This document shows, piece after piece, positions 19,027 through 63,222 of a stretch of DNA of 64,000 bases (positions within the stretch are counted from its first letter, which is position 1; the number at the start of each line of letters is the position of its first letter). The position numbers and the translations under genes are program-made. Origin of the DNA: Pseudoxanthomonas broegbernensis (GTDB taxonomy: Bacteria > Pseudomonadota > Gammaproteobacteria > Xanthomonadales > Xanthomonadaceae); the NCBI RefSeq assembly GCF_014202435.1, contig NZ_JACHGU010000007.1:1-64000 (forward strand), read 5' to 3'. The notes under the pieces are model-generated. The model did not search any database, was not told the origin of the DNA, and worked only from the letters and a program-made list of their open reading frames with translations.

Positions 19027-19327
19027 GCGGGCAGTATCGCCGATGCGGGAACCGGGGCGCTCGTCGTGCGTGGAGGCCGTGGCTTGGAAATGCCGCTCGA
19101 ACGCGATGGCGTGCACGGCGAAACCGCGGCACGGTGGAAGGCATCGCGCCGAGGACATTCCCACAGGCCAACTTTTCGCTTCCTTGCCGGCGCCGGCTGC
19201 AGTCGGCGACAGGGCCGCGTCGCGGTCGCCGGCTACACCCGGCATCTACAAGTGCCGGCACATGCCGGGGCCATCCCTTCTCCAGGGACCGGCTCCAGCT
19301 TGGCGCCCGCCTGCGGCCGCCGCGGAG

Positions 19328-19933
19328 TCAGCGCGGGCGCCAGGCCAGGGCGGCGAGGTAGCCGGGCTGGGGAATCCATTCGCGCAACTGCCAGTGCGCG
19401 GGATCGCCCAGTTCCGGGTCGCAGGCCAGCAGGCGCAGCGGCGCGTGGTCGCGATCGTCCGTGTTGCCGAACTCCAGCCGGTGCAGGCCGAAGGCCAGGC
19501 CGCGGCCGTGCGCCTTCAGCAGCGCTTCCTTGGCGCACCACAGGCGCAGGAAGGCCGGTTCGCGGCGTTCCGGGGCCAGGGCCTGGAGGCGTTCGGCCTC
19601 GGCCGGGGCGAAGAAGCGCTCGGCCAGTTCCAGGGCGCGCGGGCGCGGGCGCAGGCGTTCCAGGTCCACGCCCAGGGTGACGCCGCGGCCCAGGGCCAGC
19701 AGCAGGCGCTCGCCGCTGTGGCTCCAGCCGGCATCGCGGTCGTCGAACGGCGCGCGCAGATGCGGCCGGCCGTGGTCGTCGCGCACCAGCGGCAGCGCGT
19801 CGGCGTCCTGGCCCAGCCAGCCGGCGAGCACGCCGCGCGCCTGCGGTTCGCCGCGGCGGCCGGGCACGTGCGGCAGGGCCTGGACCCGCACCGGGCCGAA
19901 ACGCCAGGCGCCGGGCGCTTGAACGTCGCTCAT
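19328..19933 (-). CDS. 4'-phosphopantetheinyl transferase, Sfp type
   Basis: A 201-residue transferase that moves the phosphopantetheine arm of coenzyme A to a serine of carrier proteins. WSHSGERLLLALGRG is the first conserved motif, GVDLERLRPR the Mg-binding motif, and FFAPAEAERLQ followed by RLWCAKEALLKAHGRGL the third (WxxKEA). No AcpS is linked here. A likely client is the acyl carrier protein of the xanthomonadin cluster at 56.6 kb, as PPTases of this type are needed for pigment synthesis in xanthomonads, but that is inference across 37 kb. The 19027-19327 gap before it holds a palindromic repeat and no gene. Confidence 0.9.
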   Translation of the reverse strand: MSDVQAPGAWRFGPVRVQALPHVPGRRGEPQARGVLAGWLGQDADALPLVRDDHGRPHLRAPFDDRDAGWSHSGERLLLALGRGVTLGVDLERLRPRPRALELAERFFAPAEAERLQALAPERREPAFLRLWCAKEALLKAHGRGLAFGLHRLEFGNTDDRDHAPLRLLACDPELGDPAHWQLREWIPQPGYLAALAWRPR

Positions 19934-20053
19934 CGGCGTCCTCCGCGGCGCCCGTATCGCGGGAACACGGCTCCTTCACGCGGGCACGGGTTTGATGGCT
20001 GCGTACGCTCCGGGAGTCGGAGCGGATTCCGTTGACCTGAGGAGGCGCACGGC

Positions 20054-20305
20054 ATGGGCATCATCATCTGGTTGATCGTAGGCGGTATCGTCGGCTGGCT
20101 TGCCAGCCTGGTCATGAAGCGCGACGGGCAGCAGGGCATCCTGCTCAACATCGTGGTGGGCATCGTGGGGGCGCTGCTGGCCGGCTGGCTGTTCGGCGGC
20201 GGCATCAACGAGGCCATCACCATACGTACCTTCCTGTTCTCGTTGATCGGCGCGATCATTTTGCTGGCGATCGTGAACCTGTTCACCCGCGGCAAGGTGC
20301 GCTGA
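20054..20305 (+). CDS. GlsB/YeaQ/YmgE-family small membrane protein
   Basis: An 83-residue protein with three hydrophobic segments: MGIIIWLIVGGIVGWLAS, ILLNIVVGIVGALLAGWL with the GG-GGIN turn, and FSLIGAIILLAIVNLF. This is the transglycosylase-associated (PF04226) fold; despite the name no enzymatic residues exist, and the family is linked to general stress. GAGGAG about 8 nt before ATG 20054 is a strong ribosome-binding site, and a hairpin terminator follows 25 bp after the stop, so it is a single-gene unit. Confidence 0.92.
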   Translation: MGIIIWLIVGGIVGWLASLVMKRDGQQGILLNIVVGIVGALLAGWLFGGGINEAITIRTFLFSLIGAIILLAIVNLFTRGKVR

Positions 20306-20330
20306 GGACCGACCGCCACGGTAGAGGCAA

Positions 20331-20362
20331 CGAAGGCCCGGCCATGCCGGGCCTTCGCGTTT
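20331..20362 (+). terminator. Rho-independent terminator after the GlsB-like gene
   Basis: A 12-bp perfect stem (20331-20342 with 20346-20357), 3-nt loop, followed by CGTTTT. It faces the plus strand; the minus-strand flank of the convergent xthA has no T run. Confidence 0.8.
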
Positions 20363-20371
20363 TCGGGGCCG

Positions 20372-21142
20372 TCAGCGGGCCAGTTCCACCCAGGCCGGGG
20401 CATGGTCGCTGGGGCGGTCCCAGGTCCGCGGCTCGCGGTCGATGCCGGCGGCCGCCACCTGCGGGCGCAGGGCCTCCGATACCAGGGTCAGGTCGATGCG
20501 CAGGCCCAGGTTGCGGCGGAACGCGGCCTGGCGGTAGTCCCACCAACTGAACACGCCGCCGTCGGCATGCAGCAGGCGGTAGCCGTCGTGCAGGCCCAGG
20601 CCGAGCAGGCCGCGCAGCGCGGTGCGCTCGGCGGCCGAGGTCAGGATGTGGCCCTCGTGCCACACCGCCGGGTCGTGCACGTCGCGCTCGTCCGGGGCGA
20701 TGTTGAAGTCGCCCATCACCACCAGCCTCGGGTGCGCGCGGGCTTCCTCGGCCAGCCAGCGGTGCACCGCGGCCAGCCACTCCAGCTTCAGCGCGTACTT
20801 GTCGGTGCCCACGTCCTGGCCGTTGACCACGTACAGGTTGACGATGCGCACATCGCCCACCGTGGCGCTGATCGCGCGCCGGTGCTCGTGCTCGAAGCCG
20901 GGCACGCCGACCACCACGTCGCGCGGCTCCTCGCGCGCCAGGATCGCCACCCCGTTGTAGGTCTTCTGCCCGGAGAACACGCTGCGGTAGCCCAGCGCGG
21001 CCAGCGCGTCGTCGGGGAAGCGGTGGTCCTCCAGCTTGGTCTCCTGCAGGCCGACCACGTCCGGGGCGAAGCCGCGCAGCCACTGTTCCAGGTGCGGCAG
21101 GCGCACGTTGAGCGAATTGACGTTCCAGCTTGCGATTTTCAT
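20372..21142 (-). CDS. xthA: Exodeoxyribonuclease III / AP endonuclease
   Basis: A 256-residue member of the endonuclease/exonuclease/phosphatase fold, cleaving 5' of abasic sites and degrading duplex DNA from 3' ends in base excision repair. All catalytic motifs are present: MKIASWNVNSLNVRL, the metal-binding Glu in LQETKLED, NLYVVNG, GDFNIAPDERDVHDP, and the terminal catalytic pair in PSDHAPAWVEL. Full length. Converges on the GlsB-like gene and its terminator. Confidence 0.96.
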   Translation of the reverse strand: MKIASWNVNSLNVRLPHLEQWLRGFAPDVVGLQETKLEDHRFPDDALAALGYRSVFSGQKTYNGVAILAREEPRDVVVGVPGFEHEHRRAISATVGDVRIVNLYVVNGQDVGTDKYALKLEWLAAVHRWLAEEARAHPRLVVMGDFNIAPDERDVHDPAVWHEGHILTSAAERTALRGLLGLGLHDGYRLLHADGGVFSWWDYRQAAFRRNLGLRIDLTLVSEALRPQVAAAGIDREPRTWDRPSDHAPAWVELAR

Positions 21143-21291
21143 GGACGGAAGCGCTGCGGTGCGGGCCGCTAGCATAGCCGCCGGCCCGTGCCGCGGCGCG
21201 GATGCGCGGGCCGGTGCGGGAACCGGCGTCGGCGTGGCCGCACGCGCCGCGCGTGCCGGGTCTGCGGCCGCCGCATCGGTACAATCGCGCC

Positions 21292-21846
21292 ATGAACCTT
21301 TCCCTGCGTCCTTACCTGGACAAGCTTCCCGCACTGGGCGAGCGCGTGTACGTGGACCCGGCCGCCACCGTCATCGGCGACGTCGAGCTGGGCGAGGACG
21401 CCTCGGTGTGGCCGGCCTGCGTGCTGCGCGGCGACGTCAATTTCATCCGTGTCGGCGCGCGCACCAACATCCAGGACGGCAGCATCGTCCACGTCAGCCA
21501 CCACAGCCCGTACAACGCGGCCGGATACCCCACGCTGATCGGCGCGGACGTGACCGTCGGCCACGGCGCCATCGTCCACGCCTGCACCATCGAGGACCTG
21601 TGCCTGATCGGCATGGGCGCGCGCATCCTCGATGGCGCGACGGTGCGCAGGTACGGGTTCGTCGGCGCCGGCGCGGTGGTCGGGCCGGGCAAGACCGTCG
21701 GCGAGGCCGAGCTGTGGCTGGGCAGCCCGGCCCGCTTCGCGCGCCGGCTGACCGACCGGGAGATCGAGAGCCTGCATTACTCGGCCGCGCAGTACGTGCG
21801 GCTCAAGGACCGCTACCTGCAGGCGCCGGTGCCAGGCGGAACCTGA
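21292..21846 (+). CDS. Gamma-class carbonic anhydrase family protein
   Basis: A 184-residue left-handed beta-helix protein built from hexapeptide repeats (residues ~20-150). RGDVNFIRVGARTNIQDGS and the histidines in GSIVHVSHHS and VGHGAIVHAC match the metal-binding residues of gamma-carbonic anhydrases (YrdA/CaiE-like). Carbonic anhydrase activity in YrdA-like members is often weak, so the in vivo reaction is uncertain. A TACAAT -10 box (21280-21285) ends exactly 6 nt before the ATG, so the mRNA is probably leaderless. Divergent from xthA. Confidence 0.92.
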   Translation: MNLSLRPYLDKLPALGERVYVDPAATVIGDVELGEDASVWPACVLRGDVNFIRVGARTNIQDGSIVHVSHHSPYNAAGYPTLIGADVTVGHGAIVHACTIEDLCLIGMGARILDGATVRRYGFVGAGAVVGPGKTVGEAELWLGSPARFARRLTDREIESLHYSAAQYVRLKDRYLQAPVPGGT

Positions 21847-21854
21847 CGGCGCCG

Positions 21855-22493
21855 CTAGCGCCGGTGCACGTTGGTGATCCGGCCGCCGTCGCGGAACCGC
21901 TGCAACTGTGCGGTGGAATACTGCAGGCTGTCGGTGGAGTAGTAGCCCGCGTCGCTGGCCTGCCGGCCGAGGTTGCGGCGGGCGCCCTCCAACCGGCTGT
22001 AGCCCACGCTGGGTACCTGCAGGGTGACGTCGTCCCCATCGACCGCCGTCACCCGCATCAGGCCCCAGGCGTGCCGCCCGAACCCGTCCGGCACCAGCGC
22101 CTGCAGGTCGACCGTGTAGACGTCGCCCACGTGCGGGCTGAGCAGCATCTGCGCGTCGCGGTGGCCGGAAAACCGGGTGCCGGCCAGCGCGGCCACCGCC
22201 ACGATGGCGGCCACGCCCAGCAGCGCCAGGCCGCCGAAGCGGCGATGGATCGGGATCGGCACGCGCCCCAACTGGCGTTCGAACGATCCGCTGTCGTGGC
22301 GCCGGCCGCGTCCGCACACGGCACAGGCGGTGAAGTAGTTCTTTTCGGTGACCCAGGCAAACAGGTACCAGATGTGCGCGTAGCGGTAGTTGAGCAGGTG
22401 CCGGTACTCGCGCGGCGCCTGGCAGGTGCCGCAGTCGTGCGTGCCGGCCGCGCCGAGCTGCACGACGTCCCCGCCCGATCCCCAGACGATCAT
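21855..22493 (-). CDS. Zinc-ribbon membrane protein of unknown function
   Basis: A 212-residue protein. The N-terminal ~90 residues hold two Cys pairs, CGTC (HDCGTCQAP) and CAVC (TACAVCGRG), spaced like a zinc ribbon, with an aromatic segment YRYAHIWYLFAWVTEKNYF between them. One transmembrane segment follows (GLALLGVAAIVAVAALAG), then a ~110-residue extracytoplasmic domain (VGDVYTVDLQAL onward) of beta-rich character. GAGGAG upstream of ATG 22493 supports the start. I recognise the layout as a conserved hypothetical of xanthomonads and assign no function. Confidence 0.75.
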   Translation of the reverse strand: MIVWGSGGDVVQLGAAGTHDCGTCQAPREYRHLLNYRYAHIWYLFAWVTEKNYFTACAVCGRGRRHDSGSFERQLGRVPIPIHRRFGGLALLGVAAIVAVAALAGTRFSGHRDAQMLLSPHVGDVYTVDLQALVPDGFGRHAWGLMRVTAVDGDDVTLQVPSVGYSRLEGARRNLGRQASDAGYYSTDSLQYSTAQLQRFRDGGRITNVHRR

Positions 22494-22617
22494 TCCATGA
22501 TCTCCTCAAGTGGTGGTGCGCCTCGTCCATGAGTGAGGCCATGGCGATGGTAGGCCAGTTGCGTGGATGTTGCGAGGGGGGCGCGCGCTCACCGGGCGGG
22601 ACCGCCGCGCGGGGCGG

Positions 22618-22899
22618 TCAGGGCGCGGTCGCCGCCTCCAGCGCGGCCAGGATGGACATCGCCTCGGCGCGGCTGGCGCCGCACATCTCCGGGCCGGGCC
22701 GCAGCGAGGCGCAGAACGCGGGCCGTTCGGGCCGGCCGAACAGGCGGCAGCGCAGCGACGGGTCCAGTTGCAGGCACGGCACGCCGGCGGGCTTGCCCTG
22801 CGGCATGCCGGGAATCGGCGAGGCGATCGACGGCGCCGTGCAGCAGGCCGCGCAGCCGGGCCGGCAGGCCGGGTCGCGGCCGGAAGGGGAGATGTCCAC
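22618..22899 (-). CDS. YkgJ-family cysteine-cluster protein
   Basis: A 93-residue protein starting at GTG 22899. Cysteines lie in [29 protein letters not shown] and MCGAS, the pattern of the YkgJ/PF03692 family, proposed to bind an Fe-S cluster or zinc. A TACACT -10 box at 22907-22912 on the minus strand ends 7 nt before the GTG, which fits a leaderless message and supports this start. Divergent from the RDD-MoxR operon. Biochemical role unknown. Confidence 0.8.
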
Positions 22900-23028
22900 C
22901 CGGCGCAGTGTAGGGGCTGGCGCCGCGCCGCGCTGGGCAATCGCCGCGGCGGCGGCTACAGTCGCGCGCAGGTACGCAACGGGGAACGCATGCCGCCACA
23001 GGCAGCCAGCCGGCAGGAGCGCCGGCCG

Positions 23029-28447: not shown

Positions 28448-28508
28448 GCGGATCGCGGGCGATGGCCGCTGCGCAAGGCAGGCCGCGGATGCCGACGGCG
28501 CACGCCGC

Positions 28509-30146: not shown

Positions 30147-30161
30147 AGGGGCGGGCCCTGG

Positions 30162-30201: not shown

Positions 30202-30993
30202 TCAATCGGCCGAGCGCGCGGGCGATGCCGGCTCGACCCCCTTGCCCGTCGCCGCCCACCAGAGGCCCCCGTACAGGTGCTCCAGGTACAGCGGGTCGTC
30301 GTACAGCGCCGGGGTATGCCCCAGCGCGGTGGCGAACACGCGGCCGCCGTCGTAGGCGTGGTACCAGGCCACCGGGTGCTCGGCGCCCATGCCGCGCGCG
30401 GTCTGGCCGGGCCAGATGCGGGTGGGGTCGTAGCTGCGCTCGTCCACGCTCAGCACGGTACGCAGGCCCTCGACCAGCGGCGCGTCGAACTCGTACCACT
30501 CGTCGGTCCAGACCCAGCGCGCGGGCAGGCCGAAGGTAGCGGGGAAGGCGGCGTCCACCACCCGCACGGTGGCGGTCTGCACCATCGGGTGGATGCGGAA
30601 GGCGCGGCCGACCAGCTTCTCGAACCAGGGCCAGTCGCCGGGCGGGCCGAAGATCATCGCCCGGTGCACGGCGACCACGCCGCCGCCGCCGCGCACGTAG
30701 GTTTCCAGGGCATCGCGTTGCTTGCCCTTGAGCGCGTCGCCGGGGGTGTTGAGCAGGACGATGGCCGCGTACGCCGACAGGTCCGCGTCGAACGGCGCGG
30801 TATTCCACGACCAGTCCAGGTCGAAGGCGTGCCGTTGCGCCATCCGCTCGAACTGCGGCTTGGCCACCACCGCGTAGTCGTGGTGGTAGCGGTTGGGGAT
30901 GGCGACCACCAGCACCTTGAACTGGCCCTGGGCGAAGGCGGGAACGGCCAGCGTGGCGGCCAGCAGCAGGCAGGCGAGCAGGAAGCGTTTCAT
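30202..30993 (-). CDS. Exported ThuA-like domain protein
   Basis: A 263-residue protein with a clear signal peptide (KRFLLACLLLAATLAVPAFA, cut near AFAQG). The mature part has the ThuA/GATase-like fold: FKVLVVAIPNRYHHDY, IVLLNTPGDALKGKQRDALE, YVRGGGGVVAVHRAM and PVAWYHAYDGGRVFATALGHT are the family's typical blocks. ThuA-like proteins are linked to sugar oxidation or binding, but substrates are mostly unknown. On the minus strand TAGCAT (31000-31005) ends 6 nt before the ATG, suggesting a leaderless transcript even though the product is secreted. Confidence 0.88.
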   Translation of the reverse strand: MKRFLLACLLLAATLAVPAFAQGQFKVLVVAIPNRYHHDYAVVAKPQFERMAQRHAFDLDWSWNTAPFDADLSAYAAIVLLNTPGDALKGKQRDALETYVRGGGGVVAVHRAMIFGPPGDWPWFEKLVGRAFRIHPMVQTATVRVVDAAFPATFGLPARWVWTDEWYEFDAPLVEGLRTVLSVDERSYDPTRIWPGQTARGMGAEHPVAWYHAYDGGRVFATALGHTPALYDDPLYLEHLYGGLWWAATGKGVEPASPARSAD

Positions 30994-31042
30994 GCGGCCA
31001 TGCTAGCCCGTCGCGGCCGCTGGCTGCACCGCGGCGATGCGC

Positions 31043-38194: not shown

Positions 38195-38336
38195 GCCATC
38201 GCTTCGCAGGGGCGCCCTTGGGCGCGCGAGGCCCTTCCCTGGGCGCCTGGGCATCGCGCCCAATAGTGCTCCTGCGCGACAGGCGGCCGCGGTTTTTTTG
38301 CGGGGACCGCGGCGCACCGCCGGTAGAATGGTGCGC

Positions 38337-40529
38337 ATGGATGTCTCCCACCTGCTCGATGACCTCAACGTCGCCCAGCGCGAGGCCGTGTCCGCCCCGC
38401 CGGGGCACTACCTGGTGCTGGCCGGCGCCGGTTCCGGCAAGACCCGGGTCCTGACCCATCGCATCGCCTGGCTCAACGAGGTCCAGGGCGTGCCGGCGCA
38501 CGGCATCCTCGCCGTCACCTTCACCAACAAGGCCGCCGGCGAGATGCGCGCGCGCGCCGACGCGCAGTTGCGTCATGGCGCGCGCGGGATGTGGATCGGC
38601 ACCTTCCACGGCATCGCCCACCGCCTGCTGCGCCTGCACTGGAACGAGGCGCGCCTGCCCGAGTCGTTCCAGGTGCTCGACAGCGACGACCAGTTGCGCC
38701 TGGTCAAGCGCGTGGCCCAGCAACTGGAGCTGGACGACGGTCGCTTCCCGCCGCGCCAGATCGCTTGGTGGATCAACGCGCAGAAGGACGAGGGCCGGCG
38801 CCCGCACCACATCCAGCCCGGCGAAGACCCCTGGACCGATGCCCTGCGCCGCGCCTACGCGCTGTACCAGGAGCGCTGCGACCGCGCCGGCCTGGTCGAC
38901 TTCGCCGAGCTGCTGCTGCGCGCGCACGAGCTGCTGCGCGACACCCCGGCGCTGCTGGCCCACTACCGCACCCGCTTCGGCGACCTGCTGGTGGACGAGT
39001 TCCAGGACACCAACGCGATCCAGTACGCCTTCATCCGCGTGCTGGCCGGCCCCGCTGCTGATGGGAGCGGTGGCCGGGTGTTCGTGGTCGGCGACGACGA
39101 CCAGGCCATCTACGGCTGGCGCGGGGCCAAGGTGGAGAACGTGCAGCAGTTCCTCAAGGACTTCCCCGGCGCGAAGACCATCCGCCTGGAGCAGAACTAC
39201 CGCTCCTCCGCCAACATCCTGGGCGCGGCCAACGCGGTGATCGCGCACAACCCCGGCCGCATCGGCAAGCAGTTGTGGACCGACAGCGGCGAGGGCGAGC
39301 CGGTGGACGTGTACGCGGCCTACAACGAGATGGACGAGGCCCGCTTCGTGGTCGAGCGCATCCGCCAGTGGGTGCGCGACGGCGGGAGCTGGCGCGAGGC
39401 GGCGGTGCTCTACCGCAGCAACGCGCAGTCGCGCGCGCTGGAGGAGGTGCTGCTGGCCGAGCAGGTGCCGTACCGGGTGTACGGCGGCATGCGCTTCTTC
39501 GAGCGTGCCGAGGTCAAGGACACCCTGGCCTACCTGCGCCTGGTCGCCAGCCGCGCCGACGACGCGGCGTTCGAGCGCGCGGTCAACACCCCGGCGCGCG
39601 GCATCGGCGACCGCACCCTGGACGAGGTGCGCCGGCGCGCGCGCGCGGCGGAAGTCTCGCTGTGGCAGGCCGCCGCCTCGCTGGTGTCCGAGAACGCCTT
39701 GGCCGCGCGCGCGCGCAACGCGGTGGCCGGCTTCCTCGGCCTGATCGAGGCGCTGGACGCGGAGACCACCGACCTGGACCTGAAGGACCGCGTGGACCAC
39801 GTGCTCGGCCGCTCCGGCCTGCGCGAGCACTGGTCCAGCGAGGCGCGCGGCCAGCTCGACGCCGAGTCGCGCCTGGAGAACCTGGACGAACTGGTCTCGG
39901 TGGCCTCGCGCTTCTCCCGCGCCGAGCTGGACGACGACCAGGAAAGCATGAGCGAGCTGGTCGCCTTCCTTTCCTATGCGGCGCTGGAGGCCGGCGAGGG
40001 CCAGGCCCAGGCCGACGAGGACGGGGTGCAGTTGATGACCCTGCACTCGGCCAAGGGCCTGGAGTTCCCGCTGGTGTTCCTGGTGGGCGTGGAAGAGGGC
40101 GTGTTCCCCAGCTCCAAGTCGCTGGAGGAGGACGGCCGCCTGGAGGAGGAGCGCCGCCTGGCCTACGTCGGCATCACCCGCGCCCGGCAGAAGCTGGTGC
40201 TGGCGTATGCGGAGAGCCGGCGCATCCATGGCATGGACATGTACGGCATGCCCTCGCGCTTCCTGCGCGAGATCCCCGGCCACCTGCTCAACGAGGTGCG
40301 GCCGCGGGTGCAGGTGGCCCGGCCGATGGCCGCGCCGCCGCGCGTGTCCCATCCGGCGCTGGAGGTGCCGGTGCTGAAGCTGGGCCAGGGCGTGATGCAT
40401 GCCAGCTTCGGCCGCGGCGTGGTCACCGACTACGAGGGCAGCGGCGCGCATGCGCGGGTGCAGGTGAACTTCGACGAGGCCGGCAGCAAGTGGCTGGTGC
40501 TGGCCTTCGCCAGGCTGCAGCCGCTGTGA
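38337..40529 (+). CDS. uvrD: UvrD-family DNA helicase II
   Basis: A 730-residue SF1A helicase for nucleotide-excision and mismatch repair. Motifs in order: Q-motif LNVAQREAV, Walker A AGAGSGKTR (~29-37), Ia AVTFTNKAAGEMR, II LVDEFQDTN, III GDDDQAIYGWRGA, IV RLEQNYRS, V LMTLHSAKGLEFP, VI EERRLAYVGITRAR. The C-terminal RNA-polymerase-binding Tudor-like domain (MHASFGRGVVTDYEG) is intact. A TAGAAT box (38324-38329) ends 7 nt before ATG 38337; the in-frame ATG at 38328 would lie inside this box, so 38337 is preferred. Confidence 0.96.
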   Translation: MDVSHLLDDLNVAQREAVSAPPGHYLVLAGAGSGKTRVLTHRIAWLNEVQGVPAHGILAVTFTNKAAGEMRARADAQLRHGARGMWIGTFHGIAHRLLRLHWNEARLPESFQVLDSDDQLRLVKRVAQQLELDDGRFPPRQIAWWINAQKDEGRRPHHIQPGEDPWTDALRRAYALYQERCDRAGLVDFAELLLRAHELLRDTPALLAHYRTRFGDLLVDEFQDTNAIQYAFIRVLAGPAADGSGGRVFVVGDDDQAIYGWRGAKVENVQQFLKDFPGAKTIRLEQNYRSSANILGAANAVIAHNPGRIGKQLWTDSGEGEPVDVYAAYNEMDEARFVVERIRQWVRDGGSWREAAVLYRSNAQSRALEEVLLAEQVPYRVYGGMRFFERAEVKDTLAYLRLVASRADDAAFERAVNTPARGIGDRTLDEVRRRARAAEVSLWQAAASLVSENALAARARNAVAGFLGLIEALDAETTDLDLKDRVDHVLGRSGLREHWSSEARGQLDAESRLENLDELVSVASRFSRAELDDDQESMSELVAFLSYAALEAGEGQAQADEDGVQLMTLHSAKGLEFPLVFLVGVEEGVFPSSKSLEEDGRLEEERRLAYVGITRARQKLVLAYAESRRIHGMDMYGMPSRFLREIPGHLLNEVRPRVQVARPMAAPPRVSHPALEVPVLKLGQGVMHASFGRGVVTDYEGSGAHARVQVNFDEAGSKWLVLAFARLQPL

Positions 40530-45895: not shown

Positions 45896-46058
45896 GGCGG
45901 TGCCTCCGTGGGGGATGCGGGCATTATGCGGCAGGCACCGCCCGGGCAGGCCAGCGGATGCGGAGGCGGGCGGGCGGCGTCGGCGGCCGTCGCCGCGGTC
46001 GGCGGCGGTGCACGGCCGCTTCCGCCGCGGCCCGGGCCCGCGCCGCTAGAATGCCGGG

Positions 46059-48869
46059 ATGACGCGCCTCGTACTGATCGACGGTTCCAGCTACCTCTAC
46101 CGCGCCTTCCACGCCTTGCCGCCGCTGACCAACTCGGCCGGCGAGCCGACCGGCGCGCTGTTCGGCGTGGTCAACATGCTGCGTGCCACGCTGAAGGAGC
46201 GGCCCGACCACATCGCCTTCGTCGTCGACGCGCCCGGCAAGACCTTCCGCGACGACCTGTACCCGCAGTACAAGGCCAACCGCCCGCCGATGCCCGACGA
46301 GCTGCGCGCGCAGGTGCAGCCGATGTGCGAGATCGTGCACGCGCTGGGCATCGACATCCTGCGGGTGGAGGGCGTGGAGGCCGACGACGTGATCGGCACC
46401 CTGGCGGTGCGCGCGGCCGATGCCGGCATGGAGGTGACCATCTCCACCAGCGACAAGGACTTCGCCCAACTGGTGCGCGAGCCCGGCGTGGGCGGTGGCT
46501 CGGTGGCGCTGGTCAACACCATGAGCGGCAGCCGGATGGACTCGGACGCGGCGGTGGCGGAGAAGTTCGGCGTGCCGGCCGCGCGCATCGTCGACCTGCT
46601 GGCGCTGATGGGCGATGCCGTGGACAACGTGCCCGGCGTGGACAAGTGCGGGCCCAAGACCGCGGCCAAGTGGCTGGGCCAGTACGGCTCGCTGGACGGG
46701 GTGATGGGCAACGCCGCCGCGATCAAGGGCAAGATCGGCGAGAACCTGCGCGCGGCGCTGGAACGGCTGCCGCTCAACCGCACCCTGGTGACGATCAAGA
46801 CCGACGTGGCCCTGGAGTGCACGCCCCAATCGCTGCGCCTGCGCGAGCCGCACGTGGACGACCTGCGCGCGCTGTACACGCGCTACGGCTTCAACCAGGC
46901 GCTGAAGGAACTGGAGGCCGGCTCGGTGGCCGCGGGCGCCGGGATCGCCGCGGTGGCGGAGAAGGAACCGGGACGCGCGCGCAGCAGCGGGTTCGTCGCC
47001 GCCCAGGTGGCCGTGCCGGAAGGGCTCGATCCGGCCCTGGCCACGCCCGGCCGGTACGAGGCGGTGACCGAGGCCGGGCACCTGGAAGCCTGGATCGCCG
47101 TGCTGCGCAATGCAGGCCGCTTCGCCTTCGACACCGAGACCGACAGCCTGGACCCGATGCGCGCCAACCTGGTGGGCCTGAGCTTCGCCGCCGAACCGGG
47201 CCGCGCCGCCTACGTGCCGCTGGGCCACGACTACCCCGGCGCGCCGCCGCAACTGGACCGCGCCCGCGCGCTGGACCTGCTGCGCCCGCTGCTGGAGGAC
47301 GCCTCGGTGGCAAAGCTGGGCCAGCACGGCAAGTACGACCTGCACGTGATGCGCCGCCACGGCGTGGCCCTGGCCGGCTACGCCGACGACACCCTGCTGG
47401 AGAGCTTCGTGCTGGAGTCGGGCAATGCCCGCCACGACATGGACAGCCTGGCCCGGCGCCACCTGGGCTACGAGACCAAGAAGTACGAGGAGGTGGCCGG
47501 CAAGGGCGCCAAGCAGATCCCGTTCTCCCAGGTGTCGGTCGAGGACGCCACCTTCTACGCGGCCGAGGATGCGGACATCACCCTGCGCCTGCACCGCGTG
47601 CTGGCCCCGCGCCTGGCCGCCGAGCCGGCGCTGGAGGCGGTGTACCGCGACATCGAGATGCCGCTGGTGCCGGTGCTGGAGCGCATCGAGGCCAACGGCG
47701 TGAAGGTGGACGTGGACGAACTGCGCCGGCAGAGCGCGGACCTGTCCCGGCGCATGCTCGCCGCCCAGCAGCGCGCCACCGAGCTGGCCGGCCGCGCCTT
47801 CAACCTGGATTCGCCCAAGCAACTGTGCGCGCTGCTGTTCGAGGAGCTGAAGCTGCCGGCGCTGGTGAAGACCCCCAAGGGCCAGCCCTCGACCAACGAG
47901 GAGGCGCTGGAGGCCATCGCCGACCAGCACGAGCTGCCGCGGGTGATCCTGGAATACCGCGGCCTGGCCAAGCTGCGCGGCACCTACACCGACAAGCTGC
48001 CGGAGATGGTCGACCCGGACACCGGCCGGGTCCACACCAGCTACCACCAGGCCGGCGCGGCCACCGGGCGGCTTTCCTCGTCCGACCCGAACCTGCAGAA
48101 CATCCCCATCCGCACCGAGGACGGCCGCCGCATCCGCCGCGCCTTCGTCGCCCCGCCCGGGCGCAAGCTGGTGGCCTGCGACTATTCGCAGATCGAGCTG
48201 CGGATCATGGCCCACCTCTCGCAGGATGCCGGCCTGCTGCGCGCCTTCGAATCCGGCGCCGACATCCACCGCGCCACCGCCGCCGAGGTGTTCGGCCGGC
48301 CGCTGGAGGAGGTGACGGCCAACGAGCGGCGCGCGGCCAAGGCGATCAACTTCGGCCTGATGTACGGCATGGGCGCCTTCGGCCTGGCCCGGCAACTGGG
48401 CATCGGCCGCGGCCAGGCTCAGGACTACATCGCCCTGTACTTCAGCCGCTACCCGGGCGTGCGCGACTACATGGAGCGCACCCGCGAGCAGGCGCGCGAG
48501 CACGGCTACGTGGAGACGGTATCCGGCCGGCGCCTGTACCTGGAGTACATCCGCGGCGGCACCCAGGCCCAGCGCGCCGGCGCCGAGCGCGCGGCGATCA
48601 ACGCGCCGATGCAGGGCACGGCGGCGGACATCATCAAGCGGGCGATGGTGGAGGTGGACGGCTGGCTGGCCGGCCAGCGCGACGCCTCGGGCCGGAGTCC
48701 GGCGCTGATGATCCTGCAGGTGCACGACGAACTGGTGTTCGAGGCCGACGAGGCCTTCGTGCCGGCCCTGCTGGAGGGAGTGGGCGAACGCATGGTATCG
48801 GCCGCAAGACTGACTGTCCCACTGGTGGTGGACAGCGGTGTGGGCGACAACTGGGACGAGGCGCATTGA
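46059..48869 (+). CDS. polA: DNA polymerase I
   Basis: A 936-residue family A polymerase with all three domains: 5'-nuclease (RLVLIDGSSYLYRAFHALP, VEADDVIGTLA, ISTSDKDFAQLV), 3'-5' exonuclease with an intact Asp-x-Glu (FAFDTETDSLDPMRANLVG), and polymerase with motif A VACDYSQIELRIMAHL, the O-helix RAAKAINFGLMYGMGAFGLA and motif C LQVHDELVFEAD. It fills gaps in repair and removes Okazaki primers. The TAGAAT -10 box (46047-46052) ends exactly 6 nt before the ATG, predicting a leaderless mRNA. Confidence 0.98.
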   Translation: MTRLVLIDGSSYLYRAFHALPPLTNSAGEPTGALFGVVNMLRATLKERPDHIAFVVDAPGKTFRDDLYPQYKANRPPMPDELRAQVQPMCEIVHALGIDILRVEGVEADDVIGTLAVRAADAGMEVTISTSDKDFAQLVREPGVGGGSVALVNTMSGSRMDSDAAVAEKFGVPAARIVDLLALMGDAVDNVPGVDKCGPKTAAKWLGQYGSLDGVMGNAAAIKGKIGENLRAALERLPLNRTLVTIKTDVALECTPQSLRLREPHVDDLRALYTRYGFNQALKELEAGSVAAGAGIAAVAEKEPGRARSSGFVAAQVAVPEGLDPALATPGRYEAVTEAGHLEAWIAVLRNAGRFAFDTETDSLDPMRANLVGLSFAAEPGRAAYVPLGHDYPGAPPQLDRARALDLLRPLLEDASVAKLGQHGKYDLHVMRRHGVALAGYADDTLLESFVLESGNARHDMDSLARRHLGYETKKYEEVAGKGAKQIPFSQVSVEDATFYAAEDADITLRLHRVLAPRLAAEPALEAVYRDIEMPLVPVLERIEANGVKVDVDELRRQSADLSRRMLAAQQRATELAGRAFNLDSPKQLCALLFEELKLPALVKTPKGQPSTNEEALEAIADQHELPRVILEYRGLAKLRGTYTDKLPEMVDPDTGRVHTSYHQAGAATGRLSSSDPNLQNIPIRTEDGRRIRRAFVAPPGRKLVACDYSQIELRIMAHLSQDAGLLRAFESGADIHRATAAEVFGRPLEEVTANERRAAKAINFGLMYGMGAFGLARQLGIGRGQAQDYIALYFSRYPGVRDYMERTREQAREHGYVETVSGRRLYLEYIRGGTQAQRAGAERAAINAPMQGTAADIIKRAMVEVDGWLAGQRDASGRSPALMILQVHDELVFEADEAFVPALLEGVGERMVSAARLTVPLVVDSGVGDNWDEAH

Positions 48870-49392: not shown

Positions 49393-50316
49393 CTATTCGG
49401 CCAGCCAGTCGCGCGGGACCAGGTAGTCCTGCAGCCGCGCCTCGGCGCTGCCCGCTCCCGGTTGGTAGCCGTATTCCCAGCGCACCCGCGGTGGCAGGCT
49501 CATCAGGATGGATTCGGCGCGCCCGCCGCTCTGCAGGCCGAACAGGGTGCCGCGGTCGTAGACCAGGTTGAACTCGACGTAGCGGCCGCGCCGGTAGAGC
49601 TGGAACTCGCGCTCGCGCTCGCCGTAGGGCGTGTCCCGGCGTCGCTCGACGATGGGCAGATAGGCATCGAGGAAGCCGTCGCCGACCGCGCGCAGGTAGG
49701 CGAAGTCGCGCCCGAAGTCCTCGTGCAGGTCGTCGAAGAACAGCCCGCCCACGCCGCGGGTCTCGTTGCGGTGCCTGAGGAAGAAGTAGTCGTCGCACCA
49801 GCGCTTGTGCTCGGCGTAGCGCTGCGGGCCGTAGGGCGCGCACAGGCCGGACGCGGTGCGGTGCCAGTGGGCCACGTCCTCGTCGAAGGGGTAGAACGGG
49901 GTCAGGTCGAAGCCGCCGCCGAACCACCAGGCCACCGTTTCCCCCTCGCGCTCGGCGCGGAAGTGGCGGACGTTGGCATGGGTGGTGGGCAGGTAGGGAT
50001 TGCGCGGATGGAACACCAGCGACACCCCGGCCGCGCGCCAGGACGCGCCGGCCAGCTCCGGCCGTGCCGCGCTGGCCGAGGGTGGCAGGCGGCTGCCGGA
50101 CACGTCGGAGAACCCGATGCCGGCCTGCTCGAACACCGCGCCCTCGCGCAGCACCCGGGTGCGCCCGCCGCCGGCATGCCCGCCGCCGCCGTCCGGGGTG
50201 CGGGTCCAGGCGTCCTCGGCGAAGCGGGCCTGGCCGTCGGCCGCCTCGATGGCCGCGCAGATGCGATCCTGCAGGCCGGTCAGATAGTCGCGTACGGCGT
50301 CGAAGTTCGGGTTCAT
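49393..50316 (-). CDS. hemF: Oxygen-dependent coproporphyrinogen III oxidase
   Basis: A 307-residue cytosolic enzyme decarboxylating coproporphyrinogen III to protoporphyrinogen IX with O2. Family blocks are intact: [66 protein letters not shown] and [19 protein letters not shown]. Full length. On the minus strand TAGAAT (50323-50328) ends exactly 6 nt before the ATG, so the mRNA should be leaderless. Confidence 0.97.
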
Positions 50317-50359
50317 GCCGGCATTCTAGCCGGGCCCCCGCAGCCTCCCTTGATCGCGA

Positions 50360-50923
50360 TCAAGCGGCCGGGCGGCGGAATTCGTCGCGCGCCGGCGCCG
50401 TGCACAGCTTCCAGGCGATCCAGCCGTGCAGCACCGCGAAGGCCACCGCGCCGACCAGGCCGGTGACGTAGGAGAGATAGCGGCTGGCCTGCATCTGGGC
50501 CAGGAATTCGCGGCCCTCCGGAGTGTCGATCATGTCCGCGGGGAACATCGCCTGCAGGGTGTCGAACACGTGGCCGATGGCGGCCAGGCCGGCGAAATTG
50601 AGCACCGCACCGCCGACCAGGAAGGCGATGAAGGTCCAGCGTGCCCATTCCCGGCGCCTCAGCAGGCCCCAGGAGGCGGCCAGGAACAGCGCCGACAGCA
50701 GCAGGCACAGCAGAGAGAGCGCCAGGCGCCATTCCAGCACCCAGACCACCCCGGCCGGCACCTCCGGCCGCTGCGCCAGCGTGGCCACCGCCGCATCCGG
50801 CATCAGCAGCGCCAGCAACGCCTGCGCCGCCGAGCCGGCCACGCCCAGCGCGCCCAGCAGCAGCGAGATCTTGGCCATCACGGTGACGAAGCCGGCGCGC
50901 GGCAGCGGAGGCGGGACGGTCAT
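50360..50923 (-). CDS. Four-segment membrane protein, unknown function
   Basis: A 187-residue protein with hydrophobic segments near 18-40 (ISLLLGALGVAGSAAQALLAL), 65-90 (WRLALSLLCLLLSALFLAASW), 95-120 (WARWTFIAFLVGGAVLNFAGLAAIG) and 148-172 (YVTGLVGAVAFAVLHGWIAWKL). A hydrophilic loop (MFPADMIDTPEGREFLAQM) lies before the last one. AGGA lies about 6 nt before ATG 50923. No family recognised; a conserved hypothetical of this lineage is likely. Confidence 0.72.
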   Translation of the reverse strand: MTVPPPLPRAGFVTVMAKISLLLGALGVAGSAAQALLALLMPDAAVATLAQRPEVPAGVVWVLEWRLALSLLCLLLSALFLAASWGLLRRREWARWTFIAFLVGGAVLNFAGLAAIGHVFDTLQAMFPADMIDTPEGREFLAQMQASRYLSYVTGLVGAVAFAVLHGWIAWKLCTAPARDEFRRPAA

Positions 50924-53613: not shown

Positions 53614-53614
53614 C

Positions 53615-56480: not shown

Positions 56481-56613
56481 TCGGCGGAAACCGGGGTGCG
56501 AGGGCGGGTCCGGGATGATAACTCGGCCCCACGCCGGCCGCGTTCGGGCTTGCGCGGCAGCGGCCGATGCCGGATCGTTGCCGGCCTGCAATGTCTTCGG
56601 AAGGGAAACCGCA

Positions 56614-57622: not shown

Positions 57623-57657
57623 GCGCGCCGCCGTGATCGGGCGATTATGCTTGGGCC

Positions 57658-58948: not shown

Positions 58949-59534
58949 GAAGGCGCCGGACCTCGATGTCGACTGGGTGCTGGAGGCGGTGGCGCGCCCG
59001 GCGCCCAGCCGGACCCCGTTCGTCGAGCTGCGCGACTCGCCCTTGTTGAAGCAGCCCCTGCGCCTGCAGGGCGAGTACCGGCGCGAGCAGGACGGACGCC
59101 TGGTACGGCGAGTGGAGTCGCCCTACCTGGAGACCACCACGCTGACCGCCGGCGAAGCGGTGATCGAGCGCGCCGGGCGCGCGCCACGGCGCATCGCCCT
59201 GCGTCAGGCGCCGGAACTGGCCGCGGTGCAGGCCGGTTTCGGTGCCTTGCTGGCCGGCGACCGGGAGTTGCTGCAGGAGACCTATGCGGTGCAGGCGCAG
59301 GGGGTGCGCGAGCGCTGGACGCTGCGGCTGGTGCCGCGCGACCCGCGCCTGGCCGCCTCGCTGGCGCGCATCGACCTGCGTGGGCGCGGCGTGGAGCTGC
59401 GTTGCGTGGAGAGCCACCCGGCCAAGGGCGAGCCGCAGCGCACGTTGATGGCCGGCGCCGCGGCTGCCGCGACCGGCGTGGACGACGCCTCCGCGCTGGC
59501 GGCGCTATGCCACGACGGCGAAGAAGCGCCTTGA
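58866..59534 (+). CDS. LolA-like outer-membrane lipoprotein carrier protein of the cluster
   Basis: A 222-residue periplasmic protein: signal peptide (PLRTIAPLLACVLALPCAVA) then a LolA/LolB-like half-barrel (FVELRDSPLLKQPLRLQGEY, VESPYLETTTLTAGEAVIE, RWTLRLVPRDPRLAASLARI). In aryl-polyene clusters it is believed to ferry the polyene lipid across the periplasm to the outer membrane. It starts 83 bp inside the acyltransferase gene, in a different frame, and ends with TGATG overlap to the exporter. Confidence 0.85.
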   Translation: MAKTPWRPLRTIAPLLACVLALPCAVAEKAPDLDVDWVLEAVARPAPSRTPFVELRDSPLLKQPLRLQGEYRREQDGRLVRRVESPYLETTTLTAGEAVIERAGRAPRRIALRQAPELAAVQAGFGALLAGDRELLQETYAVQAQGVRERWTLRLVPRDPRLAASLARIDLRGRGVELRCVESHPAKGEPQRTLMAGAAAAATGVDDASALAALCHDGEEAP

Positions 59535-61921
59535 TGGGGGCTGGCGCCACCGCCGCCCCGCGCGCCGGCGTGCGCATCGCGCTGCTGCTGGGCTGGCTGG
59601 CGGTGCTGGCGGTGGGCGGCATGCTGTTGAGCGGCGGCCTGCGCATGGAAGAGGACCTGCGCAGCTTCCTGCCCACGCCGCGCACCCCGGCGCAGGTCCT
59701 GCTGGTGGACGAACTGGGCGAAGGGCCGGGGTCGCGCCTGCTGCTGCTGGCCCTCTCCGGGGCGCCGCCGCAGGCGCTGGCGGCGCGCTCGCAGGCGCTG
59801 CGCGCGGCCTTGGCCGCGCGGCCGGAGATCGCCCTGGCCGGCAACGGCGACGATGGCGGCCTGGAGGCGGTGCCCGAACGCCTGCGCCCCTACCGCTACC
59901 TGCTGTCGCCCACTCTGGATTCGCAGCCACTGGATTCGGCCTACCTGCACGGCGAACTGCAACAGCGGCTGCAGGACCTGGGTTCCCCGGCGGCCGACCT
60001 GGTCGAGCCATTGCTGCCGTCCGATCCCACCCTGGAGACGCTGCGCCTGGCCGAGGCCTGGCAACCCTCGCAGGCACCGCAGCGCCGGTATGGCGTGTGG
60101 TTCGACCGTGCCGGGGAACAGGCGCTGCTGCTGGCGCAGACCCGGGCCGCCGGCTTCGACGGCGCCGCGCAGCAAGAGGCCGTCGCGGCCATCGAGGAGG
60201 CCTTCGCACAAGGGGCGCATGAGGTTTCCGGGGGCGAGGGCGGCATGCCTCCGGAGGCCGAGGCCGCGCGGCTGGAGATCTCCGGCCCCGGCGCCTTCGC
60301 CGTGGCCATCCGCGAGCGCACCGAAGCGGAGATGCGCTGGATCGGCACCGCCGACACGCTGGGCCTGCTGCTGCTGTTGGCCGTGGCCTACCGGCGCTGG
60401 AGCATGCCGCTGTTCGGCGCGCTGCCGCTGGCCAGCGGCGGGCTGGCCGGGCTGGGGGCGGTGGCGCTCCTGTTCGACGGCGTGCATGGCATCACCCTGG
60501 CGTTTGGCTTCACCTTGATAGGCGTGGCCCAGGACTACCCGATCCACTTCTTCAGCCACCTGCGCCCGGGCGTGGAACCGCACGCCAGCGCGCGCGCGCT
60601 GTGGCCCACGCTGGTGACGGGCGTGGCCGCCACCTGCATCGCCTATGCCACCTTCCTGCTTTCCGGCGTGGACGGGCTGAAGCAGTTGGCGGTGCTCACC
60701 ATCGCCGGCCTGGTCGTGGCCGCCGCTTCCACCCGCTGGCTGCTTCCGGTACTGGTCACGCCCGCGCGCCACGACCCGGCGCGCTCGCCACGCCTGGAAC
60801 GGGCGTGGCGAGCGATCGAGCGATTGCCGCGCCCGCGCGCAGCGTTGGCCGGGCTGGCGATCGCGGCCGGTGGCGTGGTCGCGTTCGCCCCGGGCGCGTT
60901 CTGGCAGAACGACCTGGCGCGGCTGACCCCGGTGCCGCCGGCGGACCTGCAGCGCGATGCGCAACTGCGCGCCGAACTGGGTGCGCCGGACGTACGCTAC
61001 ATGGCCGCCCTGACCGCGGCCGACGCCGAGGCCGCGCTGCAGGCATCCGAGCGTCTGCTGCCGGTGCTGCGTCGGCTGCAGGGCCAGGGCGTGCTCGACG
61101 GCTACGACCTGGCCGCGCGCTACCTGCCCAGCGCGACCACCCAGCGCGCGCGCCAGGCGCGGCTGCCTGACGCGGTATCGCTGCGGTATGCGCTGGACGC
61201 GGCGCTGGCGGACGCGCCGTTCCGCGGCGATGCCTTCGCTCCTTTCCTGGAGGACGTCGCCACCGCGCGCGCCGCGCCGCCGCTGGGCATGGACGATCTG
61301 GCGGGCACCCCGCTGGAACTGGCCGTGGCCGGCCTGCTGCTGCGCGGCCCGGACCACGCCACCGCGCTGGTCTCGCTGTCCGGGCTGCGCGACCCGGAGG
61401 CGCTGGCGGCGGCCATCGCGCCGTACGGCGCGCAATTGCTGGACCTGAAGCAGGCGTCCGAATCGCTGGTCGAGGAGTGGCGATCGCGCCTGCTCGGTGC
61501 GCTGGCGGTGGCGGCGCTGCTGCTGGCCGGCATCGTGTGGCTGGCGCTGCGCGCGCCGCGGCGGGTGCTGCGGGTGCTGGCGCCGATGGTGCTGAGCACG
61601 CTGCTGATCCTGGCGGTGCTGCGCGGCTGCGGCGCGGAGCTGAACCTGTTCCACCTGGTCTCGCTGATCCTGGCCGCCGGCCTGGGCCTGGACTACGCGC
61701 TGTTCTTCGACCACGCCGGCGACGACCGGGCCGCGCAGTTGCGCACGCTGCACGCGGTGATCGTGTGCAGCCTCACCACGCTGCTGGTGTTCAGCCTGCT
61801 GGCGCTGTCCTCGATCCCGGTGCTGCGCGCCATCGGCAGCACCGTGGCGCTGGGCGTGTTCTTCAACTTCGTCCTGGCCCTGCTGGTGGCGCGCGCGCCC
61901 GCGGCGGAGCGCATGGCATGA
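59534..61921 (+). CDS. MMPL/RND-family exporter of the xanthomonadin cluster
   Basis: A 795-residue inner-membrane exporter with the 12-segment MMPL layout: one N-terminal segment (LLLGWLAVLAVGGMLLSGGL), a large periplasmic loop, five segments with GFTLIGVAQDYPIHFFSHLR, then a repeat of the pattern ending in LILAAGLGLDYALFFDHAGDD. The Asp-Tyr pairs QDY and LDY are the proton-relay positions of MmpL proteins. In Xanthomonas and Flexirubacter-type clusters this protein moves the pigment lipid outward, handing it to the LolA-like carrier encoded just upstream. Confidence 0.9.
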   Translation: MGAGATAAPRAGVRIALLLGWLAVLAVGGMLLSGGLRMEEDLRSFLPTPRTPAQVLLVDELGEGPGSRLLLLALSGAPPQALAARSQALRAALAARPEIALAGNGDDGGLEAVPERLRPYRYLLSPTLDSQPLDSAYLHGELQQRLQDLGSPAADLVEPLLPSDPTLETLRLAEAWQPSQAPQRRYGVWFDRAGEQALLLAQTRAAGFDGAAQQEAVAAIEEAFAQGAHEVSGGEGGMPPEAEAARLEISGPGAFAVAIRERTEAEMRWIGTADTLGLLLLLAVAYRRWSMPLFGALPLASGGLAGLGAVALLFDGVHGITLAFGFTLIGVAQDYPIHFFSHLRPGVEPHASARALWPTLVTGVAATCIAYATFLLSGVDGLKQLAVLTIAGLVVAAASTRWLLPVLVTPARHDPARSPRLERAWRAIERLPRPRAALAGLAIAAGGVVAFAPGAFWQNDLARLTPVPPADLQRDAQLRAELGAPDVRYMAALTAADAEAALQASERLLPVLRRLQGQGVLDGYDLAARYLPSATTQRARQARLPDAVSLRYALDAALADAPFRGDAFAPFLEDVATARAAPPLGMDDLAGTPLELAVAGLLLRGPDHATALVSLSGLRDPEALAAAIAPYGAQLLDLKQASESLVEEWRSRLLGALAVAALLLAGIVWLALRAPRRVLRVLAPMVLSTLLILAVLRGCGAELNLFHLVSLILAAGLGLDYALFFDHAGDDRAAQLRTLHAVIVCSLTTLLVFSLLALSSIPVLRAIGSTVALGVFFNFVLALLVARAPAAERMA

Positions 61922-62379
61922 GCACGGTGCTCCTGGACCGCGCCGGCATCCTCGCCCTGGTGCCGCACCAGGGCGCGATGTGCCTGTGGGACGAAGTCGT
62001 CGAGTGGGACGCGCAGCGCATTGGCCTGCGTGCCCGGAACCACGTCGCGCCCACCCATCCGCTGCGCGCGCGAGGCCGGCTGCCGGCACTGGCGCTGTGC
62101 GAATACGGAGCCCAGGCGATGGCGGTGCATGGCGGCCTGCTGACGCGGGAACACGGCGGCCGCGCCGCCGCGGGAGTGCTGGTGGCGCTGCGCGAAGTGG
62201 ACCTGGCGGTGGCCCGCATCGACGACCTGGCGGGCGCGCTGGAGGGCGAGGCCGAACTGCTCGCGGCCGGGCCAGGCAGCCAGCAGTACGCGTTCCGCAT
62301 TCGCCACCGTGGCCGCCTGCTGGCGAGCGGCCGCGCCGCGGCGATGCTCGATGCCACCGGCCTCGATACTGGCGGGTAA
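61918..62379 (+). CDS. Hotdog-fold dehydratase-like protein of the aryl-polyene cluster
   Basis: A 153-residue protein of the ApeP-like 3-hydroxyacyl-ACP dehydratase family: LALVPHQGAMCLWDEVVEWD, then ALALCEYGAQAMAVHGGLL, with the PHQGxM and EYGAQAMAVHG motifs typical of this branch. It partners with the shorter FabZ-like protein at 57.7 kb. Start ATG 61918 overlaps the exporter stop (ATGA). Confidence 0.86.
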   Translation: MSTVLLDRAGILALVPHQGAMCLWDEVVEWDAQRIGLRARNHVAPTHPLRARGRLPALALCEYGAQAMAVHGGLLTREHGGRAAAGVLVALREVDLAVARIDDLAGALEGEAELLAAGPGSQQYAFRIRHRGRLLASGRAAAMLDATGLDTGG

Positions 62380-62481
62380 GGCGCATCGGCGGATGCGATG
62401 GCGTCCGGTCCACCGGCATCGCAAAGGACGCCTGGCCGCACGCATGCCGGCGAAGCGCCGGCACGCTGGCACAATGGGCCG

Positions 62482-63222
62482 ATGAGCCAGACCCGTATTC
62501 CTACCCGACGCGCCCTGGTCACCGGCGGCAGCGGCGACATCGGCGGCGCGATCTGCGGCGCCCTGGCCGATGCCGGCCTGGAGGTGATCGTGCATGCGCA
62601 TGGCAACCTGGCCCGCGCCGAGGAAGTGGCCGGGTCGATCCGCGCGCGCGGCGGGCGCGCGCAGGCGACGGCTTTCGACGTGGCCGACGGCGGCGCCGTC
62701 GCGGCGGCGGTCGCCGTGTTGCTGGAGCAGGGCCGCATCGACGTCCTGGTCAACAATGCCGGCGTCCACGACGACGCACCGATGGCCGGGATGAGCGACG
62801 CGCAGTGGCAGCGTGTGGTCGACGTATCGCTGCATGGCTTCTTCCATGTCACCCGCCCGCTGTTGCTGCCGATGGCGCGCGCGCGCTGGGGCCGCATCGT
62901 CAGCCTGTCCTCGGTGGCCGCGGTGCTGGGCAACCGCGGCCAGGCCAACTACGCCGCGGCCAAGGCAGGGCTGCATGGTGCTTCCCGGTCGCTGGCGCGG
63001 GAGATGGCCAGCCGCGGGATCACCGTCAATGTCGTCGCGCCGGGGGTAATCGAAGGCGCGATGACGGCCGGGCGCTTTCCGCCCGAGGCGCTGAAGCAGA
63101 TGGTTCCGGCGGCCCGGCCGGGCCGCCCCGAGGAGGTGGCCGCGCTGGTGGCGTTCCTGTGCTCGGAGGCGGCCGGTTACGTCAACGGCCAGGTGATCGG
63201 CATCAACGGCGGAATGGCCTGA
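62482..63222 (+). CDS. FabG-like 3-ketoacyl-ACP reductase of the cluster
   Basis: A 246-residue short-chain dehydrogenase. ALVTGGSGDIGGAICGALAD is the NADPH-binding TGxxxGxG motif, VLVNNAGVHDD the NNAG motif, and Ser in VSLSSVAAVLG with YAAAKAG gives the Ser-Tyr-Lys triad; INGGMA closes the fold. It would reduce beta-keto intermediates of the polyene. A CACAAT -10 box (62470-62475) ends exactly 6 nt before ATG 62482, so it may have its own leaderless promoter, separate from the upstream genes by 102 bp. Confidence 0.92.
   Translation: MSQTRIPTRRALVTGGSGDIGGAICGALADAGLEVIVHAHGNLARAEEVAGSIRARGGRAQATAFDVADGGAVAAAVAVLLEQGRIDVLVNNAGVHDDAPMAGMSDAQWQRVVDVSLHGFFHVTRPLLLPMARARWGRIVSLSSVAAVLGNRGQANYAAAKAGLHGASRSLAREMASRGITVNVVAPGVIEGAMTAGRFPPEALKQMVPAARPGRPEEVAALVAFLCSEAAGYVNGQVIGINGGMA

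Follow-up and report, generated by a model that had tools for sequence, protein, structure and literature searches.

-10 hexamers adjoining start codons and predicted leaderless mRNAs in Pseudoxanthomonas broegbernensis

The window analysed here is a whole stretch of 64,000 nucleotides (nt) of Pseudoxanthomonas broegbernensis DNA (positions 1-64000 of contig 7; GC content 73%) from a genome of 3.47 Mb. Eight genes in it, namely polA, uvrD, hemF, rsmG and genes resembling gamma-carbonic anhydrase, fabG, thuA and ykgJ, carry a hexamer like a promoter -10 element 6 or 7 nt before the start codon. Very probably, these hexamers are sigma-70 -10 elements driving leaderless messenger RNAs (mRNAs), a predicted class of about 2-3% of genes. 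In the proposed mechanism, the -10 of a sigma-70-type promoter would directly adjoin the reading frame, and RNA polymerase would begin transcription roughly seven bases past the hexamer, on the A of ATG. Given such a start the mRNA would be leaderless, and the ribosome would recognise the 5′-terminal AUG rather than a Shine-Dalgarno (SD) site. Leaderless genes would be transcript heads in a genome otherwise often using SD leaders. Both the transcript start at ATG and translation from the 5′ AUG are what we infer from the sequence. The finding is of an ordinary kind and well supported, and in four of the eight genes its conservation is wide. The features concerned are given below.

46047..46052, + strand: polA -10 hexamer TAGAAT, 6 nt before the ATG at 46059, without an SD site and without a -35-like match of 4/6.
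46059..48869, + strand: polA, DNA polymerase I (NF004397, 1136.7 bits), with a predicted leaderless mRNA from the A of ATG.
38324..38329, + strand: uvrD -10 hexamer TAGAAT, 7 nt before the ATG at 38337.
38337..40529, + strand: uvrD, DNA helicase II (NF008743, 1179.8 bits, alignment beginning at residue 1).
50323..50328, - strand: hemF -10 hexamer TAGAAT, 6 nt before the ATG beginning at 50316.
49393..50316, - strand: hemF, oxygen-dependent coproporphyrinogen oxidase (NF003727, 434.6 bits).
21280..21285, + strand: -10 hexamer TACAAT of the gamma-carbonic anhydrase-like gene, 6 nt before the ATG at 21292.
21292..21846, + strand: gamma-carbonic anhydrase-like hexapeptide protein (NF050158, 150.7 bits, below the model cut-off of 250).
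19033..19038, - strand: rsmG -10-like hexamer GATACT, weaker, 6 nt before the ATG beginning at 19026.
18385..19026, - strand: rsmG (gidB), 16S rRNA m7G527 methyltransferase (TIGR00138, 171.9 bits).
62467..62475, + strand: extended -10 TGG-CACAAT of the fabG-like gene, 6 nt before the ATG at 62482.
62482..63222, + strand: fabG-like 3-oxoacyl-ACP reductase (NF004200, 322.6 bits).
31000..31005, - strand: thuA-like gene, -10-like hexamer TAGCAT, 6 nt before the ATG beginning at 30993.
30202..30993, - strand: ThuA-domain protein (PF06283, 186.2 bits).
22907..22912, - strand: ykgJ-like gene, weak -10-like hexamer TACACT, 7 nt before the GTG beginning at 22899.
22618..22899, - strand: YkgJ-like CxxCxxCC protein (PF03692, 25.9 bits); the gene finder chose a later ATG, at 22806.

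On re-reading, the hexamers, coordinates, strands, spacings (6 nt; 7 nt for ykgJ and uvrD) and start codons listed in the initial annotation were correct for 8/8 genes. Its statement that these genes lack a ribosome-binding site held as well, an SD match of at least 4 nt being present in 0/8. The same applies to the statement that genes with good ribosome-binding sites lack the motif: such SD matches were found in 27 of the 49 other window genes, and both features together in 0/49. Misassigned starts were considered for polA and uvrD and rejected, since their profile alignments set in at residues 3 and 1, respectively. For polA, profile position 2 corresponds to residue 3, leaving little room for a later start.

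Genes were called with a codon-model gene finder, which was trained on 290 long open reading frames (ORFs) of the same genome and did not use upstream motifs for starts. A strict -10 was defined by obligatory A2 and T6, with no more than one of T1, A4 and A5 mismatched, and in the window all in-frame starts lying up to 120 nt from the called one were considered. A strict -10 at spacing 5-8 was found in 8/58 window genes, against 0, 1, 1 and 2 of 58 at the control spacings 9-12, 13-16, 17-20 and 21-24, respectively. These eight comprise seven of the claimed set (GATACT of rsmG fails the strict definition) and the gene at 15565-16320, whose match belongs to a GTG located 117 nt upstream from the start that was called and is probably due to chance. 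Restricted to called starts, the -10 was present in 5/57 window genes; shuffled upstream 30-mers gave a mean of 0.23, and 0/2000 shuffles reached 5.

Genome-wide counting against controls, proposed as a check in the initial annotation, yielded the enrichment, both as TANAAT at N6 compared with N12 and in shuffles of sampled genes. In the whole genome, TANAAT-N6-ATG occurs at 27 sites and TANAAT-N12-ATG at 2. The looser TANNNT-N6-ATG gives 148 sites versus 100 for the reversed pattern, which is a weak test. A genome sample of 0.8 Mb contained 713 called genes, 662 of which were used (150 nt upstream and a neighbour present); 413 of the sampled genes could head a transcript, and 200 operon-internal genes were used for comparison. 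A strict -10 at spacing 5-8 precedes 23/413 heading genes, with 13 at exactly 6 nt, compared with a mean of 1.0 per position at spacings 0-4 and 9-24. The expectation for 23/413 is 3.26 by shuffling (maximum 9 in 300 shuffles), or 8.3 when derived from positions 12-79, ordinary leadered promoters included. Among operon-internal genes the number was 1/200, with 0.3 expected. An SD match of at least 4 nt was present in 0/23 of the -10 genes versus 152/390 other heading genes (Fisher 2.3e-5). Heading genes also showed a second, broad -10 hump 26-34 nt before the start, which is the leadered class and lies where SD-bearing leaders would be expected to place it. When 3 to 8 of the 23 are taken as background, 15-20 of 662 are left, that is, roughly 2-3% of genes, or some 70-90 of about 3,100. 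The 'whole translational mode' announced in the initial annotation would comprise this share of the genes.

For orthologue analysis, the polA set consisted of the top 80 among 581 confirmed loci, and the other sets of loci kept by searches (at most 30 each) plus tblastn copies in the remaining loci. Own-genome copies, duplicates identical from -40 to +60 and matches starting after query residue 25 were left out, as were starts less than 100 nt from the locus end, fabG copies below 65% identity and thuA copies below 30% identity. The nearest named polA relatives (82-86% identity) were a Lysobacterales metagenome-assembled genome (MAG), Pseudoxanthomonas species and one Xanthomonas strain. A -10 at 5-8 nt before an in-frame start was found in 65/80 polA, 53/58 uvrD, 29/40 hemF and 20/31 gamma-carbonic anhydrase orthologues. 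At the control spacing 9-12, the corresponding counts were 0/80, 0/58, 0/40 and 2/31. Such conservation at a fixed distance supports assignment to the leaderless class without defining it. For these four genes, the leaderless arrangement looks ancestral to the family. The arrangement of uvrD, and that of polA with an extended -10, would be kept in Rhodanobacteraceae relatives. In the uvrD orthologues L050, L104, L141 and L147, the start codon is GTG with the same 6-nt -10 spacing, predicting a leaderless GUG. In four polA loci, L090, L091, L097 and L100 (two Arenimonas, two MAGs), TAGAAT or TACAAT lies about 26-32 nt before the ATG; here the gene appears to have moved between the leaderless and the leadered state.

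These data bear on the view that the hexamers are fortuitous, having been spotted by eye in so long a window, which we regard as extremely improbable. Such a view could point to ykgJ, thuA and perhaps fabG, which lack wide conservation, and to GATACT (rsmG) and CACAAT (fabG), the two of the eight hexamers outside TANNNT. The window shuffles, the genome count of 27 versus 2 and the conservation across 58 uvrD and 80 polA orthologues argue against it; chance is excluded for the set, though individual genes, for example ykgJ and thuA, may yet be chance matches.

Promoter anatomy was analysed by information content on 50 polA and 45 uvrD loci preselected for a -10 at spacing 6; the invariance of A2 and T6 in these values results from that selection. 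Values were 1.4-2.0 bits for T1, A4 and A5, and 1.6 bits for the unconstrained third base in polA, a G; in uvrD, the four bases preceding the hexamer also carried 0.9-1.4 bits. Around -35, values were at most about 0.6 bits. The bit values indicate that the hexamer is kept in position while most upstream DNA drifts, with no -35 retained. A conserved -35 was accordingly rejected, none being present among the window sites or orthologue sets.

Where polA hexamers have lost T1, TG is found at -15/-14, forming an extended -10, in 12/12 loci, compared with 0/52 of those with T1. The loci are L102, L107, L109, L110, L112, L113, L118-L121, L124 and L125, mostly with TGC-GAGAAT replacing TAGAAT, and they belong mostly to genera that we take to be placed in Rhodanobacteraceae. 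The presence of TG where polA lost T1 is what recognition by RNA polymerase would predict.

A different explanation takes the hexamer as an AT-rich, unstructured patch that aids SD-less leadered mRNAs from promoters further upstream. In a GC-rich genome, AT near SD-less starts would be favoured for start-codon access, and the eight sites lack -35 elements, as this explanation would have it. The letters nevertheless spell a -10 hexamer with a single favoured distance to the start, the free third base is conserved in polA, and the extended -10 TG accompanies every loss of T1 in that gene. Operon-internal genes need ribosome access too, yet only 1/200 has the motif. The patch explanation is therefore very improbable, and generic AT-richness was rejected on the preferred spacing, the extended -10 exchange and the count within operons.

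Sigma-70 -10 elements driving leaderless mRNAs remain the preferred interpretation, and the exact position of the transcript start bears on it. The -10 could be real while transcription starts within the ATG or a few bases ahead of it, giving a short leader, or the mRNA could be mostly leadered with the leaderless promoter a minor one. Transcription starts are usually spread over a few bases, and spacings other than 6 do occur: among hits, polA has spacing 5 in 5/65 and 7 in 9/65, uvrD spacing 7 in 8/53 and hemF spacing 7 in 12/29. In the hemF loci L046 and L066, the spacing from hexamer to ATG was 7 by eye. The modal spacing is nevertheless 6 nt in polA (51/65), uvrD (45/53) and hemF (16/29), as counted by a script that chose spacing 6 where several fitted. 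Moreover, 23/23 sampled -10 genes begin with ATG, against 317/390 other heading genes (p 0.02), a result weakened by the preference of the gene finder for ATG. On balance, this alternative, in either form, is considered unlikely.

Several further observations count against predicted leaderless transcription, for single genes or as a class. Conservation is weak in rsmG and fabG, with a strict -10 at 5-8 in 9/27 and 5/29 orthologues, and slight in ykgJ (3/25) and thuA (2/8). For rsmG, the looser NANA[ACT]T at spacing 5-9 is present in 20/27 orthologues, and CACAAT of fabG is common to the same-genus genome G002 (L256). Orthologues with a -10 elsewhere were found for polA (8/80 at 17-20 and 5/80 at 25-28), uvrD (5/58 at 21-24), hemF (4/40 at 21-24 and 7/40 at 25-28) and gamma-carbonic anhydrase (4/31 at 25-28). 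A -35-like match of at least 4/6 is present at none of the eight window sites. In rsmG hexamers without T1, TG was present in 4/18 and lacking in 14/18, and loci in the TG test share descent, so that the counts are not independent events. Plain TANNNT at spacing 6 precedes 14/662 genes, and one spacing within 15-60, in the region of the broad second hump, reaches 13. Finally, the same-family genome G022 gave 4/200 versus 2.9 expected, with 0 at spacings 9-16, in a sample of 400 kb out of 4.96 Mb that is too small to decide its level. The leaderless reading of the initial annotation is supported for the set; thuA and ykgJ are hardly conserved, and rsmG and fabG only partly so.

For hemF, a second element bears on the position of the transcript start.

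50350..50363, - strand: FNR/Anr-type box TTGATCGCGATCAA, at -47 to -34 from the hemF ATG and 21 nt before the -10.

Class II FNR/Anr sites have the form TTGAT-N4-ATCAA and are centred near -41.5 of the transcript start. The hemF box is centred at -40.5 counted from the A of ATG, a value that holds only if +1 is that A. With a class II centre near -41.5, hemF transcription would begin on the A of ATG or one base away from it. A matching box was found in 9/41 hemF loci, with a gap of 21-22 nt between box and -10 in 9/9. The genome contains six matches to PF13545, three of them over the cut-off. Inspected by eye, two of these three proteins have a cluster of Cys residues at the N-terminus together with an ETVSR helix, and one FNR-like gene adjoins a hemN-like ORF. 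The genome is thus predicted to encode at least two FNR-like regulators. Together, these features suggest that hemF, a predicted leaderless gene, may be under oxygen-dependent control. A scan of the 662 sampled genes for FNR-type boxes gave a single box, at -61.5, which was not at a leaderless candidate.

Fifteen of the 23 sampled -10 genes could be named over the NCBIfam cut-off: dinB, proS, otsB, dusB, rlmH, rplS, apaG, ksgA, ubiH, lpxH, yqgE, a Kdo kinase gene, ccmA, a moeB-type gene and the gene for NAD(P)H-hydrate dehydratase/epimerase. The nfuA-like, pssA-like, hflK-like and ftrA-like genes were below the cut-off, and 4/23 had no match at the E-value used. With its hexamer at 8 nt, rplS looks like a chance member. 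The initial annotation had stressed DNA repair and haem genes; the sampled genes are mixed housekeeping genes with no category effect visible. A special link to DNA repair was rejected on this functional mixture.

Spread was assessed by comparing counts of TANAAT-N6-ATG and TANAAT-N12-ATG sites across genomes. Nine genomes of the own family, which we infer to be Xanthomonadaceae, had 344 N6 versus 32 N12 sites, a 10.8-fold excess. Ten other sampled families of the order gave ratios of 1.3 to 7.1-fold, with p <0.01 in 8/10 (all except f5 and f6). In 138 genomes of other gammaproteobacterial families, one genome each, the N6 sum was 10577 versus 9472 for N12. Outside the order, an N6/N12 excess with p <0.001 was observed in G101 (22/3), G145 (13/0), G160 (26/5), G199 (19/3) and G161 (89/51), and these lineages are possible further users of leaderless genes. 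Three gammaproteobacterial genomes chosen for about equal N6 and N12 counts showed no excess in ORF-aware samples: G188 with 4 versus 4.2 expected, G177 with 4 versus 5.2 and G197 with 3 versus 3.3.

A stronger proposal is that in polA, uvrD and hemF the leaderless state itself, beyond the promoter, has been selected, being kept as the family diverged, for uvrD and polA in Rhodanobacteraceae as well, while the remaining upstream DNA and even the type of -10 changed. Under such selection, 5′-AUG messages would let repair and haem supply continue when SD initiation is impaired. We consider this proposal distinctly doubtful.

Gammaproteobacteria are usually treated as SD organisms on the Escherichia coli model. 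No new kind of system is added here; polA, uvrD and hemF, predicted to be leaderless over much of the order, lend themselves as a natural group in which to study why leaderless initiation persists. For annotation in the order, a -10 six bases upstream flags a likely start codon. The exchange between TAGAAT and TGC-GAGAAT in polA provides a neat natural case of extended -10 replacement.

Leaderless bacterial genes have been defined by a TANNNT hexamer some 12 bp ahead of the translation start, and predicted gammaproteobacterial cases lie mostly in Xanthomonadales and Legionellales, with a mean of 4.5% of genes (Zheng et al. 2011; PMC3160421). By virtue of that prediction, both the kind of gene and its presence in Xanthomonadales were already known. 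The genes described here resemble the TA-led genes of that study in the distance of TANNNT, and 2-3% is of the same order; gene-by-gene conservation, the extended -10 exchange and the hemF FNR geometry are features from the present analysis, as far as the accessible text goes. Judged by listing, this was the only relevant paper on leaderless genes and Xanthomonadales among the open-licence papers searched. In Deinococcus-Thermus, a -10 motif, most often TACACT, lies about 6-7 bp before the ORF, a GGAG-type ribosome-binding motif marks another class, and there is no pathway bias (Zhong et al. 2025; PMC12340547). The -10 adjoining the ORF, the separate class with ribosome-binding sites and the lack of a gene category are found here too. 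Nearly one third of genes are concerned in D. radiodurans, versus 2-3% here, and section titles of that paper announce expression tests, whereas the present class is predicted from sequence. A further study (PMC3744752) notes, in its accessible part, that its own method was unable to assign starts unambiguously. Among the open-licence papers searched, nothing was found on leaderless mRNA with polA and uvrD, or on leaderless start codons in Pseudoxanthomonas. Bradyrhizobium japonicum is an alphaproteobacterium. In this species, 192 mapped starts lie exactly at the start codon, and leaderless promoters have an extended -10, TGnTA (PMC4842269). The likeness lies in leaderless promoters with an extended -10, starts having been mapped there and predicted here. 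The difference is that in the five orthologue sets of the present analysis TG occurs only where T1 of the hexamer has been lost.

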